A stretch of 64,000 nt of DNA from Nitrospinaceae bacterium (lineage in GTDB: Bacteria > Nitrospinota > Nitrospinia > Nitrospinales > JACRGP01), in contig JAJDBB010000005.1 in assembly GCA_029261555.1 (NCBI GenBank), positions 1-64,000 of the forward strand, read 5' to 3'. Position 1 is the stretch's first letter, and each line of letters begins with the position of its first letter. The notes below the pieces were generated by a model. It searched no databases and had not been told where the DNA came from. It worked only from the letters and a program-made list of their open reading frames with translations. Position numbers and translations under genes: made by a program. Shown here one piece after another: positions 2,880 through 60,866 of the stretch.

Positions 2880-4799
2880 TCAACCGACCAGTTTGACCGC
2901 GCTGGACCCGGAATAGGAACCGTCCGCCACAGACTGGTAAAAAGTTTTTACGGTATCGTAGACGCCGTCGACGTCGAGCTTTAAATCCCTGCGAATCAGT
3001 TTTGGCGAACCGTGGTGTACTGGAAAATCTCCGACGCCAATACGCTCCACCGGGCAATTCAAAACTTTATTTTCCTGAAGGGTCTCCAGAACTGCGGAAC
3101 CCCAACCGCCATCAAGGGCATGCTCCTCGACCGTGACCAGGCATTTGCATTGATTGGCCATCTTGACGATTAATTCTGAATCCACGGGCTTGGCGAACCG
3201 ACCGTTCACGACGGCGACGCTCACGCCTTCCTGCTCGAGTTTCTCTGCGACCTCCACCGAGGGAGCAACCATGTGCCCGTAAGCCAGGATGGCGACGTCC
3301 GTTCCTTCGCGCACCGTCTCTCCCTTACCGATCTCCAGGATTTGCATTTCTTCCATCGGAACACCCAGGCCGGCCCCTCTTGGATAACGAAGCGCGGCGG
3401 GACCGGGATGATAAATCGCCGTCTTGAGCATGTGGCGCAATTCATTTTCATCCTTGCAGGCCATCACCACCATATTGGGCAAGGTCCGAAGGTAAGCGAT
3501 ATCGTACATCCCCTGATGCGTGGCGCCGTCTTCTCCGACAATCCCCGCCCGGTCCATACAAAAAGTGACGTCCAGGTTCATCAGGCAAACTTCATGGACC
3601 ACCTGATCGTAAGCGCGTTGCAAAAAGGTGGAATAGATCGCGGCCACCGGTCGCATGCCTTCGATGCTCAACGCGCCGGCAAAAGCCACGCCGTGCTGTT
3701 CGGCCATGCCCACGTCGAAGGTGCGTTCCGGAAACTCTTTTCCGAACTTGGTGATTCCCGTGCCGTCCGGCATGGCGGCGGTGAGGCCGACGATTTTTTC
3801 GTCCTCCTTGGCCAGGTCGATCAGCGCCTGCGCAAAAACCGAAGTGTAATTCGCGTTGCCGGACTTCTTATGAAACTCTCCTTTTTGAATATCAAAAGGC
3901 GAAGCACCGTGCCAGACGTCGGCGCTTTCTTCCGCAACCTGATACCCCTTGCCCTTTTGGGTGACGACGTGGAGAAGCGTGGGTCCCTTCAGGTCTTTAA
4001 TGGTTTCGAGAGTTTCGATCATTTCCCTGGAGTTGTGACCATCGACCGGTCCTATATAGCGGAATCCCAGATCCTCGAACAGTCTGCCGGGAATAAACAT
4101 TCCGGTAACCGCCTCGTCGAGTTTATGCGCGTAATGCGAGATGTCTTTTCCAATGCCGGGAATCGACAACAACATTTGGTCGATTTCCTTTTTGAACTTG
4201 GTCATTACCTGGCCGGTCATGATCTGGCTCAGGTGCGTGGAAAGGCCGCCCACGTTGGCGGCAATGGCCATTTCGTTGTCGTTGAGTATGACAATCATGT
4301 CTGTCTTGAGGTGGCCAACATGGTTCAATCCTTCAAAGGCCATGCCGGCGGTCAACGAGCCGTCGCCGATGATGGCGACAACGGAGTTGTCCTCTTTTTT
4401 AAGATCGCGCCCAATGGCAAAACCGACGGCTCCGGAAATAGACGTTCCGCCATGCCCGCAATTCCAATGGTCGTGTTCGCTTTCCTCTCTGCGTGTGAAC
4501 CCGCAAAGGCCTTCGTATTGGCGCACCGTTTCGAAGCGGTCGTTCCTTCCGGTCAAAATTTTATGAACGTAACTTTGGTGGCCGACATCCCAGACAAACT
4601 TGTCTTTCGGAGAGTCAAACACATAATGCAGAGCCATGGTGATTTCCACGATTCCCAGATTGGAACCCAGATGGCCGCCGGTTTTAGAAATGGTTTCCAG
4701 CAAACGGTTGCGAATTTCCTCCGCCAGGTCGGGCAACTGGTCGATATCCAGTTTTTTTAAATCCTGCGGACCGTTAATTTGACTTAAAAAATCGCTCAT
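2880..4799 (-). CDS. dxs: 1-deoxy-D-xylulose-5-phosphate synthase
   Basis: Thiamine-diphosphate enzyme that condenses pyruvate and glyceraldehyde 3-phosphate, the first step of the MEP isoprenoid pathway. It has 639 residues, the family length. The TPP/Mg motif begins at GDGSLTAG (about 145-152) and continues to the NDNEMAI segment about 27 residues on. The transketolase pyrimidine domain (DGTGITKFGKEFP onward) and the C-terminal domain follow. The gene is 12 bases behind ispA, so the first enzyme of the pathway and the prenyl synthase are probably made from one message. Confidence 0.98.
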   Translation of the reverse strand: MSDFLSQINGPQDLKKLDIDQLPDLAEEIRNRLLETISKTGGHLGSNLGIVEITMALHYVFDSPKDKFVWDVGHQSYVHKILTGRNDRFETVRQYEGLCGFTRREESEHDHWNCGHGGTSISGAVGFAIGRDLKKEDNSVVAIIGDGSLTAGMAFEGLNHVGHLKTDMIVILNDNEMAIAANVGGLSTHLSQIMTGQVMTKFKKEIDQMLLSIPGIGKDISHYAHKLDEAVTGMFIPGRLFEDLGFRYIGPVDGHNSREMIETLETIKDLKGPTLLHVVTQKGKGYQVAEESADVWHGASPFDIQKGEFHKKSGNANYTSVFAQALIDLAKEDEKIVGLTAAMPDGTGITKFGKEFPERTFDVGMAEQHGVAFAGALSIEGMRPVAAIYSTFLQRAYDQVVHEVCLMNLDVTFCMDRAGIVGEDGATHQGMYDIAYLRTLPNMVVMACKDENELRHMLKTAIYHPGPAALRYPRGAGLGVPMEEMQILEIGKGETVREGTDVAILAYGHMVAPSVEVAEKLEQEGVSVAVVNGRFAKPVDSELIVKMANQCKCLVTVEEHALDGGWGSAVLETLQENKVLNCPVERIGVGDFPVHHGSPKLIRRDLKLDVDGVYDTVKTFYQSVADGSYSGSSAVKLVG

Positions 4800-4811
4800 G
4801 ACGTAACCCGG

Positions 4812-5702
4812 TCAAAATGTCCGTTGAACAAAGAAACGAGCGATCTCCCGCAAGGGATCTGCGCGCTCGTCGAAATCTCGTAAACTGGCGACGCCTTCCT
4901 CCACCAGCTTCTCGGCTTGTTTTTTAGAGGCGTCCAACCCGTAAAGGGCGGGATAAGTTGCCTTGTTCTTATCAATATCGCTGCCGACGTCCTTACCCAG
5001 CTTTTCCTTATCGCCGACGATGTCCAGAATATCATCCACAATTTGAAAAGCCAGCCCAATGTGCGATCCAAACTCGGACAGGGCGGCCAATTGTTTCTGC
5101 TCCGCTCGGCCCAAAATAGCGCCGCTTCGAATGCAGGCCTTGAAAAAAAACCCCGTTTTATAAATATGAATGTATTCCAGAGTTTCGGGATCAATCTTCT
5201 TGCCTTCGGATTGAATATCGACCACCTGCCCGCCGATCACTCCGCCCGACCCCATGGCGCGGGAGATTTCGTTTGCCGCCCGAAGAATATTGGCGGCGGG
5301 GATGGTCTCCATCAACGCCGACTGGGTCATAACGATAAACGCCTGCGTCAATAGAGCATCGCCGGCCAAAACGGCAATGGCCTCGCCAAACACCTTATGA
5401 TTGGTCGGCTTTCCCCGGCGCAGACTGTCGTCGTCCAAGGCGGGCAAATCGTCGTGGACGAGGGTATAGGTGTGAATAAACTCGACGGCAACCGCAAAGG
5501 GCAAAACGGTTTGGCGATCCGCGCCAACCGCCTCCGCCGCGGCCATGACCAATATGGGCCGCAAACGTTTGCCTCCCGCCATGAGGCTGTAATGCATGGA
5601 TTGATGGATGGTTTCCGGATAGGATTCCTTACTCGGCAAGTAATCGATCAGAACTTCGTCGATTAGCTTCTTTCCATCACCCAGATAATTTTCTATAGAC
5701 AA
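4812..5702 (-). CDS. ispA: Polyprenyl (farnesyl/geranylgeranyl) diphosphate synthase
   Basis: Trans-prenyltransferase of 296 residues that elongates allylic diphosphates with IPP. The first aspartate-rich motif is DDLPALDDD (84-92) and the second is the DDILD segment near residue 223. The CxxC-free chain-length region before the first motif (FIHTYTLVHDD) fits short-chain FPP/GGPP synthases. It precedes dxs by 12 bases. A perfect TATAAT lies upstream on the minus strand (5725-5730), about 22 bases before the ATG, but I cannot find a convincing -35 box. The last residues (RFFVQRTF) are the usual short C-terminal end. Confidence 0.94.
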   Translation of the reverse strand: MSIENYLGDGKKLIDEVLIDYLPSKESYPETIHQSMHYSLMAGGKRLRPILVMAAAEAVGADRQTVLPFAVAVEFIHTYTLVHDDLPALDDDSLRRGKPTNHKVFGEAIAVLAGDALLTQAFIVMTQSALMETIPAANILRAANEISRAMGSGGVIGGQVVDIQSEGKKIDPETLEYIHIYKTGFFFKACIRSGAILGRAEQKQLAALSEFGSHIGLAFQIVDDILDIVGDKEKLGKDVGSDIDKNKATYPALYGLDASKKQAEKLVEEGVASLRDFDERADPLREIARFFVQRTF

Positions 5703-27367: not shown

Positions 27368-27396
27368 ATTATATTCGGGCTTAATTTACCTGTCAA
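27368..27396 (-). promoter_or_regulatory. Consensus sigma-70-type promoter of the nuo operon
   Basis: On the minus strand TTGACA (27391-27396) and TATAAT (27368-27373) are separated by exactly 17 bases, a full match to the housekeeping consensus. Transcription would begin near 27361, leaving a leader of about 70 bases before nuoA. Such perfect boxes are rare and suggest strong, constitutive expression. I see no obvious operator inside the spacer. Confidence 0.8.
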
Positions 27397-27407
27397 TCAA
27401 AGAATGG

Positions 27408-27643
27408 CAGGCAAGCGCCGGGGTAGCCCCCGGTGGCAGATAGTGTAGCGTTTAAGGGAAGCGGTTCAATATAGGTGAGCTTGCGTCTCGAACTCTGCAC
27501 CCACGGCGAGTGGCCGGGGTAGCCCCCGGTGGCAGATAGTGTAACGTTTAAGAAAAGCGGTTCAAGCTTCAGTGAGCTTGCGTCTCGAATCCTGCCCCCA
27601 CGGCGAGTGGCCGGCCAGCGTAACGCTGGCCGGCGCTTGCCTG
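27408..27643. repeat. Repeat element: two tandem 96-97 base units within inverted ends
   Basis: Two direct copies (27417-27512 and 27513-27609) start with GCCGGGGTAGCCCCCGG and end in CACGGCGAGTG. They differ at a few bases. A perfect 11-base hairpin follows. The whole block is bounded by CAGGCAAGCGCCGG (27408) and its exact inverse (27630-27643), which look like terminal inverted repeats. It occupies the gap between the DUF2231 stop and the nuo promoter. No coding capacity is evident. Together with the promoter this accounts for the gene-free stretch 27290-27649. Confidence 0.85.
27610..27634. repeat. Perfect hairpin, 11-base stem and TAA loop
   Basis: GCCGGCCAGCG, TAA, CGCTGGCCGGC. It is a self-complementary GC-rich hairpin that closes the tandem repeat block. 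There is no T-run on either side, so it is not a simple intrinsic terminator, though it could stall transcription or protect a 3' end of the DUF2231 message. The inner CCAGCG-NNN-CGCTGG core recurs at 55634, and a shorter form at 29079. Confidence 0.85.
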
Positions 27644-27649
27644 GAGACT

Positions 27650-28195
27650 TCAGCTTGTTTTCTTTTCATATTCATGATCTTCATCATGGTCCTCGTGTGC
27701 CGCGTAAAATTTTCCGGACTGAATCAGCGCCTTGGTTTCCGCGGGCAGGTGAATGGTGGCGGCCCCATACTTATAAACCAGCTCTCCTCCCGTATGGCCC
27801 GTAATGCCCAGGGGAATAACGGCCAGAAAACTCGCCACCGCAAACGCCATCCGAAACTTATGAGAATTCCGGAGCGGAATCAAAAAACCCGCCGAGGCCA
27901 TCACTAACAAACCTCCCGCGATCCAGGGAATGGTTTCGCCCATTTCCTCGTGCTCTTCGATCACTTCATGCGCAACCACTTTTTCGACTTTATCCTCGTC
28001 GACCTCGCCAAGCTCTACGGCAACCATCGAAGACGCCGTGTAAACCAGGGCAACCAATACGATAATGGCCCAGGTTTTTTGCGTCAAAAGTTCCTTCCGG
28101 ATGGCCCACCATGTGGCAAGCGCGGCAAAGGGTAAAATGGTTCCGAGAACGATTGGGAAATGCACAACCAGGGGATGCAACGGTAAATTAAACAT
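27650..28195 (-). CDS. DUF2231-type membrane protein
   Basis: Integral membrane protein of 181 residues with four hydrophobic helices. The start MFNLPLHPLVVHFPI matches the DUF2231 signature. Helices 1 and 2 are followed by an acidic/histidine-bearing loop (DEDKVEKVVAHEVIEEHEE). Helices 3 and 4 follow, and the tail is a His/Asp/Glu-rich segment (HEDHDEDHEYEKK) that could bind metal. The function of the family is unknown; several members sit near cytochrome or copper genes. AAAGGAGG lies a few bases before the ATG. It is divergent from the HTH membrane protein next door. Confidence 0.75.
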   Translation of the reverse strand: MFNLPLHPLVVHFPIVLGTILPFAALATWWAIRKELLTQKTWAIIVLVALVYTASSMVAVELGEVDEDKVEKVVAHEVIEEHEEMGETIPWIAGGLLVMASAGFLIPLRNSHKFRMAFAVASFLAVIPLGITGHTGGELVYKYGAATIHLPAETKALIQSGKFYAAHEDHDEDHEYEKKTS

Positions 28196-28852: not shown

Positions 28853-29100
28853 CCCCCGCCAGGCAAGCGCCTGGAGGCAGTATTTTAACCACCTCTTGCA
28901 AAGAGGGTGGGGATGACTCCTCCTTTAAGAAATTTAATAGAAAATCTTTTAGACAGGATTAACAGGATAGACCCCCAAGACGTCAGGCTGAGCTTGTCGA
29001 AGCCCCGGCCCTTTTCCCACTTCGCCCTTCGACAGGCTCAGGGTGACAAATGGACACTGGCTCCGGGCGCTTGCCTGGCAGCGTCACGCTGGCGCCGGCC
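28843..29100. repeat. Mosaic repeat block filling a convergent gap
   Basis: Starts inside the stop codon of the HTH gene with GCCGGGGTAGCCCCC. A hairpin CCAGGC-AAGC-GCCTGG (28859-28874) follows, then the long palindrome of the TCGAAG family (28982-29047). It ends with the inverse module CGGGCGCTTGCCTGG and a CAGCG-TCA-CGCTG hairpin (29079-29091). It stops two bases before the stop of the opposing PLD-like gene. The block is built from the same modules as the 27.4 kb element but in a different order. Confidence 0.8.
28982..29047. repeat. Long palindrome, TCGAAG/CTTCGA family, copy 1
   Basis: Left arm GTCAGGCTGAGCTTGTCGAAG (one mismatch) pairs with CTTCGACAGGCTCAGGGTGAC across a C-rich loop of about 24 bases. 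A second copy is at 46681-46746. Palindromes with this CTTCGACAGGCTCAGG core are known from intergenic regions of many unrelated bacteria; their role is not established. Confidence 0.75.
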
Positions 29101-45457: not shown

Positions 45458-46639
45458 GTGTTTTTCAATTCTGAAAATTTGAAGCAACTCCCAGCTTTCT
45501 TTCTCGTCTTTTTTATACTCGCTGCTTTGTCGGGTTGCCTTTTTGGGCAGGGCGATCCTGAAAGCGAAATTGCCGGACTGAAAAAAGATTTGATCGAGGA
45601 ACCGCAAAACCCGGAGACCCATTACCAGATTGGCGTGCGTTTGATGAAGCTAAAAAAGTATAAGGACGCGGAGCGCCAGTTTCACGAAGCTCTCCTGTTC
45701 AACAAACTTTTTCCCGAAGCGCATCGGGAAATGGGAATCTCCCGGTTTTATATGGAAAATTACGATCAGGCCGAGGAGTCATTGAAACAAGCGCTGATCT
45801 ACACCCCCGACGACGGTCGCGCCCTGACAAGCCTGGGAACGCTCTACCTCTCCCTGGGAGAAACCGACCAGGCCCTGGAACAATTCGAAGCCGCCCGCGG
45901 GGTCTGGAATCATCCCGACCTGCGTAACAACCTGGGAAGCCTTTACGCAAAATTGGGCGAGGACAAAAAGGCGGAGGTGGAATGGGAAAAAGCCCTGGCG
46001 TTGGATTCAAAAAACGCGACGGCTCATAACAATCTGGGAACGCTGGCCGAAAAATCGGGCGACTTTCCGAAAGCGAAGGAACATTTTAAGAAGGCGGCAA
46101 AATTGAATCCAAATTATGCGCCGCCGTTTTATAACTTGGGCGCGCGTTACGCCCTGGAAGGGAAGTTAAAAAAATCGATTGAACTTTTCCAAAAAGCGAC
46201 GGAACTCAACCCGGAGGAGGGAAAATTTTTTGCCGGTTTAGGCTGGTCCTACATGAGAATGAACCATCGCATGCAGGCGACTCAGGCCTTTGAACGGGCG
46301 GGGAAGTTAAACTTCCAAACCGCCGCCATGCACAACGCTTTGGGAGAGTTGTACTGGGTCGCGGGAAAAACCAAAAAAGCCGAGACGTCGCTAAGGCGCG
46401 CTATTCTCATGACCCCTGAAGACCCTGAACCCTATTACCGGCTTTCAATGATTCTCAATAGCGTTAACCAGGGCAGGAAAAGTATTCGCAACGGACTCGT
46501 TGCCCGCAAATTGTTTCAGGACCGGGGGGATACGACGATGGCACTCAAAGCGCAATCCAACCTGGAAAGATTTTACAAAAAATACCGGCTCGGCCCGGAA
46601 GATTTTAAAAGCCTTACCCTGCCCGGCTCCGGTTCTTAA
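45458..46639 (+). CDS. TPR-repeat lipoprotein
   Basis: 393-residue protein with signal peptide and lipobox LSGC (Cys26), followed by about nine tetratricopeptide repeats from residue 45 to 370 (for example HYQIGVRLMKLKKYKDAERQFHEAL and HNNLGTLAEKSGDFPKAKEHFKKAAKL). Likely an outer- or inner-membrane-anchored scaffold of the NlpI/PilF kind, with no specific pathway evident. The start is GTG at 45458; AGGAGG lies 11 bases before it. The final 25 residues are not repetitive. Confidence 0.85.
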   Translation: MFFNSENLKQLPAFFLVFFILAALSGCLFGQGDPESEIAGLKKDLIEEPQNPETHYQIGVRLMKLKKYKDAERQFHEALLFNKLFPEAHREMGISRFYMENYDQAEESLKQALIYTPDDGRALTSLGTLYLSLGETDQALEQFEAARGVWNHPDLRNNLGSLYAKLGEDKKAEVEWEKALALDSKNATAHNNLGTLAEKSGDFPKAKEHFKKAAKLNPNYAPPFYNLGARYALEGKLKKSIELFQKATELNPEEGKFFAGLGWSYMRMNHRMQATQAFERAGKLNFQTAAMHNALGELYWVAGKTKKAETSLRRAILMTPEDPEPYYRLSMILNSVNQGRKSIRNGLVARKLFQDRGDTTMALKAQSNLERFYKKYRLGPEDFKSLTLPGSGS

Positions 46640-54065: not shown

Positions 54066-54175
54066 CCAGGCAAGCGCCTGGATGCAATAGTTTGGATTTT
54101 CAAACCCAATGTAGATTGTAGCGTTATCCAAAGTAAGTAGAGCTATCTTGCCCCTCCGGCTAGAAGCCGGGCTAT
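54061..54175. repeat. Mosaic repeat module upstream of recA
   Basis: GTAGCCAGGCAAGCGCCTGGA begins inside the previous stop codon, as in the copy at 28843. It is followed at 54091-54125 by TTTGGATTTTCAAACCCAAT and then GTAGATTGTAGCGTT, which is about 80 percent alike to 55575-55608 on the other side of recA. A short hairpin (CCGGCT-AGA-AGCCGG, 54156-54170) ends the block. The gap 54066-54418 otherwise holds the recA promoter and no recognisable gene. Confidence 0.75.
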
Positions 54176-54258
54176 CGACTATCCCCCTCTATGGTCCGGT
54201 CTGGCGATTTCTCGCCTTCCTGAATTCAACCCCAAAATTATTCAATAACCGTTTGCGT

Positions 54259-55549: not shown

Positions 55550-55665
55550 GCCGGACAAGCGCCCGGTGGCAGGGTTTGATTTGCAAATCCAATGCAGCTT
55601 GTAGCGTTCACCGTATAAGCGGCGCTATTGGGTCCAGCGGCACGCTGGCCGACGAGGCGCCAAAA
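55550..55665. repeat. Mosaic repeat module between recA and recX
   Basis: The block contains GCCGGACAAGCGCCCGG near its start and 55575-55608, homologous to 54091-54125. The perfect CCAGCG-GCA-CGCTGG hairpin (55634-55648) shares its stems with the one at 27615-27629. It lies 46 bases past the recA stop, so recA and recX may be separated by partial termination. No coding capacity. Confidence 0.75.
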
Positions 55666-60843: not shown

Positions 60844-60866
60844 CTGCCTCCGGGGGCTACCCCGGC
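60844..60866 (-). repeat. GCCGGGGTAGCCCCCGG module behind the LRR gene
   Basis: On the minus strand GCCGGGGTAGCCCCCGGAGG runs into CAG, matching the first 23 bases of the tandem units at 27417 and 27513. It begins four bases after the stop of the LRR gene, again immediately behind a coding region. It lacks the second module (CAGGCAAGCGCC). Confidence 0.8.

Follow-up and report, generated by a model that had tools for sequence, protein, structure and literature searches.

The window analyzed here (the whole stretch of 64,000 nucleotides) lies on contig 5 of a draft Nitrospinaceae genome (hereafter G000; 3.05 Mb, 129 contigs, 86% complete), which was compared with the single available genus-mate, G001, also a draft of ~86% completeness. 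At 27408–27643 it contains a 236-base element located between the stop codon of a 181-aa ORF and a promoter-like motif (Table 1). The gene downstream of this motif is probably nuoA-like, judging from its own sequence and its neighbours, and its relatives in other genomes are preceded by a similar motif (by eye). The nuoA site holds two repeat units in G000 and one diverged unit with other hairpins in G001, and no unit was seen by eye at this site in four other relatives. The 181-aa ORF, which appears membrane-like, separates the element from its other neighbours in both the window and G001; the nuoA region of G003 and G004 instead borders the gene that lies further upstream (by eye).

Repeat comparison within the element recovered the two direct units of 96 and 97 bases that had been reported from the letters alone (53 nt, 94% identical, at a spacing of 96; 43 nt, 93% identical, at a spacing of 97). 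They are arranged in tandem, and each consists of a short hairpin (hereafter, cap), a ~60-nt core, and a second cap. A perfect hairpin follows on the 3' side of unit 2; it had been described as an 11-base hairpin, and its perfection was borne out, whereas its arms proved to be 12 nt long (27610–27621 and 27623–27634) with a 1-nt loop. The inverted 14-base termini are likewise present, perfect, and bracket both units together with the long hairpin. However, they look like two inverted copies of the CCAGGC-AAGC-GCCTGG cap carrying a common change, and not like family-defining termini. Two ORFs of 91 and 111 aa begin within the element with no sign of either being a gene, in agreement with the lack of coding capacity noted before.

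Table 1 Repeat-family features and neighbouring sequences in the window.
Feature	Position	Strand	Remarks
Promoter-like TTGACA-N17-TATAAT of the nuoA-like gene (outside the element)	27368–27396	-	undamaged beside the element
Left outer inverted arm CAGGCAAGCGCCGG	27408–27421		CCAGGC-AAGC cap with mutations, joined directly to the following hairpin
Unit 1	27417–27512		96 nt
Unit 1 5' cap CCGGGG-TAGC-CCCCGG	27418–27433	+	
Unit 1 core	27435–27493	+	profile R1, 61.8 bits (R1 training copies include this core)
Unit 1 3' cap CCAC-GGCGA-GTGG	27501–27513	+	
Unit 2	27513–27609		97 nt
Unit 2 5' cap CCGGGG-TAGC-CCCCGG	27514–27529	+	
Unit 2 core	27531–27589	+	profile R1, 65.4 bits (R1 training copies include this core)
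Unit 2 3' cap CCAC-GGCGA-GTGG	27598–27610	+	
Long hairpin around CCAGCGTAACGCTGG (27615–27629)	27610–27634		order-wide cap type; near-identical to CCAGCGTSACGCTGG
Right outer inverted arm CCGGCGCTTGCCTG	27630–27643		
181-aa ORF	27650–28195	-	
Cap hairpin	28859–28874		same cap set
Cap hairpin	54066–54081		same cap set
Second, diverged unit: cap-like CCGGACAAGCGCCCGG, core 55574–55628, cap CCAGCGGCACGCTGG	55551–55648	-	core E 0.0031 (R1)
Cap hairpin	55634–55648		same cap set
Cap hairpin	60850–60865		same cap set

The suggestion that the inner modules recur elsewhere in the window also held, with four further cap sites and one diverged core (Table 1). In the region 28859–29077, a second inverted pair of CAGGCAAGCGCC (28860–28873 and 29064–29077) brackets other repeats, including GTCAGGCTGAGCTTGTCGAAG...CTTCGACAGGCTCAGGGTGAC, which we take to be a word present in many unrelated bacterial genomes.

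Copy number, modular build, and taxonomic range

The element belongs to a high-copy, dispersed, intergenic family that exceeds chance expectation by far. Using the whole element as a query, at least 47 matches were found in G000 (E ≤ 0.001; best 40 of 156 candidates), and the 96-nt unit gave at least 46 matches in G001 (best 40 of 90 candidates). A profile of the ~60-nt core made from 34 copies (R1) matched at least 145 places in G000 and at least 144 in G001 at E ≤ 0.01; since only the best 150 candidates were considered in each genome, the true numbers are probably higher. Core hits numbered 106 in 902,504 bases of G000 and 104 in 824,111 bases of G001, compared to none in the reversed sequence of the same bases, although these stretches were mostly picked for holding copies and the densities are therefore biased upward. 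The genome-wide search proposed with the original prediction, which a lack of further copies would have contradicted, returned many copies.

A typical unit (~96–101 bp) comprises a cap, a tag (usually AGGCA or ACCCA), the ~60-nt core (consensus GGCAGnTAGTGTAACGTTTAAGGGAAACGGTTCAAGnATCGGTGAGCTTGCATCTCAAAC, tag included), another tag, and a closing cap. The caps are drawn from a small set with 6-bp stems, mostly CCRGSS, and nearly fixed loops (CCAGGC-AAGC, CCAGCG-TGA, CCGGGG-TAGC or -AAGC, CCGGCG-AGG, and CCGGGC-GTT, plus the shorter CTGC-TCGCC and CCAC-TCGCC). Perfect 6-bp stems were found in 74 of 117 upstream flanks compared to 19 of 2000 random 28-mers; on the 3' side, 31 of 108 copies lacked a hairpin under the cap-typing rule. 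Among the 92 flanks with at least five pairs, 74 stems were perfect, whereas shuffling the arms between copies left a mean of 17 and a maximum of 28, showing that the two arms of a cap change together, apparently through replacement of whole modules. The two hairpins enclosing a core are usually of different types. Tandem arrays proceed in steps of 96–98 nt (four units at G000:C39 21995–22340; three at C56 1190–1444), and aligned loci form a mosaic of caps, cores, and an additional 3' module (by eye). In a longer form of the unit, a ~65-nt module (TGCAATAACGAAAGTTCG...AATCGCCAAC) stands between the core and the closing hairpin (G000:C122, C33, and C36; G001:C200 and C108).

Caps and cores differ in range. 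R1 did not match three other genomes of the same family, and in the phylum it matched only 2 of 77 genomes, both from the window's genus. In contrast, the exact CCAGCGTSACGCTGG hairpin occurs in 29 of 41 relatives with up to 85 copies per genome (reversed pattern: at most one), and paired CCAGCGTSACGCTGG hairpins 70–98 nt apart were found in 8 of the 41 genomes, representing six genera. In genus g2, the one such genus read in detail (20 stretches from two genomes; other genera were judged from listed matches), ACCCA or ACTCA comes after a cap, then ~60 nt of sequence and a second member of the cap set; the tandem periods are 97–99. Homology between these g2 cores and those of the window's genus (g1) was considered and went undetected in both directions, although distant homology is still conceivable: R1 did not match the 20 stretches of G002 and G004, and a g2 profile (21 stretches, some of them not full units) reached best E-values of 0.36 in G000 and 0.17 in G001, with none of its weak hits (0 of 11 and 0 of 12, respectively) on g1 cores. 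Since the caps are order-wide and the g2 cores not detectably related, the caps are the older, common component, and the cores are genus-specific as far as seen in the sequences compared. Two genomes of another family in the same order, G024 and G016, hold 85 and 54 exact CCAGCGTSACGCTGG hairpins and gave no PF01797 (Y1/RAYT) match.

Genomic position, turnover, and insertion footprints

Using gene positions from a simple longest-ORF rule, 146 of 177 clusters lie between two genes, 14 inside a predicted ORF, and 17 at segment ends. Of 168 neighbouring 3' ends, 95 have a core within 40 nt, compared to a mean of 63 and a maximum of 80 when cores were placed at random in the same gaps (1000 runs); the corresponding number for 5' ends is 20 of 124 (random mean: 32). 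Units therefore mostly sit just past stop codons. In 74 of the 107 single-core clusters, the core has the same orientation as the closer upstream gene; in 33 it does not.

The sister genomes usually differ in the units they carry at the same site. Alignment of G000 and G001 gave 86 collinear gaps, 30 of them with a core (14 in G000 only, 8 in G001 only, and 8 in both); a further 12 core-bearing aligned blocks, 6 with cores in both genomes, were excluded, some of the short ones being repeat matches and not orthologues. In the eight shared gaps, the best core pairs are 47–85% identical, hardly more alike than random pairs (63%, sd 9), whereas the flanking aligned blocks, among those displayed, are mostly 77–91% identical; core pairs beyond these gaps include repeat matches, one of them at 92% identity. 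In G001, units also occupy short gaps between tRNA-like genes (C19 218–446 and 1425–1712), and at the counterpart of the first of these gaps G000 has only ~20 nt between the two genes.

Comparison of occupied with empty sites revealed footprints of several kinds. At G000:C122 (~54116–54216), a 101-nt unit adjoins a CCAGCG hairpin; in G001, this joint is present but holds no unit and no duplication past an ambiguous 3 nt. At G000:C43 (core 45903–45963), the unit lies between perfect 39-nt repeats of the upstream gene end, stop codon included (the first 3 nt fit the element end too), whereas G001 has one copy of the 39-nt stretch and no unit. At G001:C200, ~24 nt of a gene end occur twice, the copies differing at a few positions. 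The duplication at G001:C11 covers at least 34 nt surrounding what appears to be a gene start, with other sequence in between. A 14-nt hairpin stands on both sides of the unit at G000:C122 ~29371, and the G001 counterpart has a single one. With family repeats masked, which leaves hairpin-made duplications uncounted, unique DNA was duplicated at 3 of 164 clusters, compared to zero in each of five shuffled controls. Flanks sharing a word of at least 14 nt were found for 36 of 195 copies (8–11 in shuffled controls), the majority being tandem arrays or caps that recur; joint microhomology was judged by eye. The target duplications that were to be looked for according to the original prediction thus have no single length (none, ~14, 24, ≥34, or 39 nt), a spread resting on few events: one clean insertion and three unique-DNA duplications. 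This variation, which includes the absence of any duplication, speaks against a transposase that makes a fixed staggered cut. A different element, bounded by long inverted ends (AGGGTCAGGACTCATTAATTATG...), occurs at G001:C45 (L098 ~216–520) and G001:C83 (~4732–5169); a hairpin-capped unit has landed inside the latter copy.

Known repeat systems and the mode of spread

Based on its architecture, the element at 27408–27643 is very probably a tandem pair from a REPIN/BIME-like repeat family. This agrees with the initial view of a non-autonomous mobile repeat or BIME-like cluster, since the family is multicopy, extragenic, hairpin-bounded, modular, partly tandem, and variably present between sisters. 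In the parts of PMC3116915 consulted, REPINs are described as extragenic hairpin doublets of ~100 bp with a spacer in the middle, present in many copies and partly arranged as ordered tandem clusters, all of which applies to the present units. However, the two hairpins of a unit here are usually of different types, a conserved core particular to the genus takes the place of the spacer, no RAYT was found in either carrier, and some copies have long flank duplications. The GTAG- and CGTC-tagged REPs, according to the consulted parts of PMC3733652, are high-copy palindromes downstream of genes that form dimers with 20–100 bp spacers, including heterodimers with different stems. GTAG-23 of T. roseum lies within small palindromes (CCGSSCC-n3,4-GGSSCGG) whose S-variability resembles that of the caps and offers the nearest parallel found; the words Nitrospina, Nitrospira, and CCAGCG are absent from the main text of that paper. 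In contrast to these REPs, the conserved hairpin foot in our alignments is AGGCA/ACCCA (reverse TGCCT/TGGGT) and not GTAG or CGTC (by eye). With neither the GTAG/CGTC tag nor a RAYT found, the family is not filed here as a member of the REPs or REPINs. Enterobacterial BIMEs are mosaics of hairpin modules and short motifs that cluster at gene 3' ends (in part PMC2817692); the present clusters also mix hairpins with other short motifs (by eye), the likeness meant being one of build, but each unit here has one long core with a hairpin at each end. No earlier report of such repeats in this phylum was found in the literature as far as its texts were accessible.

As the best explanation overall, we propose a short non-coding mobile repeat spread by hairpin template switching (probability roughly 0.45). 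The unit would replicate as a passenger of intergenic regions, lodging next to hairpins already present and directly past stop codons. When such a region becomes single-stranded in replication, its hairpins may stall synthesis; the growing strand could then switch to another copy of the unit, copy it, and return at or slightly before its point of departure, so that the insertion is either clean or accompanied by a flank duplication whose length varies. Tandem arrays and swapped caps would result from slippage among similar hairpins. This route, template switching at hairpins during replication, would need no dedicated enzyme and is put forward tentatively. It is favoured by the variable duplications together with the distribution of PF01797, a family not found in either G000 or G001 but present in 11 of 41 relatives, among which hairpin number shows no relation to its presence (41 genomes; p = 0.82).

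An enzyme acting in trans is the main competitor, although a somewhat unlikely one: the units would be true REPIN-type elements, and a Y1 (RAYT/IS200-like) or other HUH enzyme, recently lost or missing from both drafts, would recognise their hairpins in single-stranded form. For REPINs, dependence on RAYT transposases is the prevailing view. The ~100-bp doublet, extragenic 3'-end position, and tandem clusters match REPINs (PMC3116915, in the parts consulted), one insertion lacks a duplication, and the order-wide conservation of the caps is easier to explain with a protein recognising them than by template switching. Against this stand the different caps at the two ends of a unit, the AGGCA/TGCC tag in place of GTAG or CGTC, and the PF01797 counts. 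The RAYT link raised by the original prediction also found no support among relatives, where 9 of 11 stretches around PF01797 genes contain no cap hairpin. Since IS200/IS605-type transposition is not known to make target duplications, the ~24–39 nt duplications at some copies argue against it as well. With drafts ~86% complete and PF01797 as the sole family searched, another or a missed enzyme is possible. A classical MITE, moved by a DDE transposase through cut-and-paste, is disfavoured and very improbable: the element is short, non-coding, multicopy, and has inverted ends, and a separate element with such ends (AGGGTCAGGACT...) is present in G001, but a MITE would show constant terminal repeats and a short target duplication of constant length, whereas here duplications range from none to 39 nt and the ends are exchangeable hairpins. 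Because the caps vary, fixed terminal inverted repeats were also rejected as a family mark. A phage or plasmid origin was dropped, with no phage or plasmid match obtained.

The position just after stop codons, the predominance of the sense orientation, and the co-varying cap arms would also fit an RNA or DNA element retained because it serves the host, e.g., a 3'-end stabiliser or transcription stop, with mobility being incidental. We consider this improbable. Sites are mostly not kept between the sisters, and cores in shared gaps differ about as much as random ones. A structured RNA core was rejected, with no pairs predicted by RNAalifold on 34 copies and single-copy folds in disagreement, as was a two-helix core, whose proposed helices covary no more than expected from shuffling (on the five measures, 37 to 453 of 500 shuffles scored as high or higher); Rfam covariance models gave no match at gathering score over the window.

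Hairpin-induced template switching may also be part of a wider system, although this extension seems rather unlikely. Across the Nitrospinales, exchangeable caps would mobilise any ~60-nt core that two of them enclose, with no RAYT involved; each genus would have amplified an unrelated core of its own beneath the same caps, and copying would sometimes duplicate the neighbouring gene end. The present family is REPIN-like in build, abundant, and recently active, apparently has no RAYT, and combines order-wide caps with cores replaced from genus to genus; it thereby offers a way to test whether short repeats can spread by means of hairpins alone. The family explains much of the intergenic difference between close relatives in this group.
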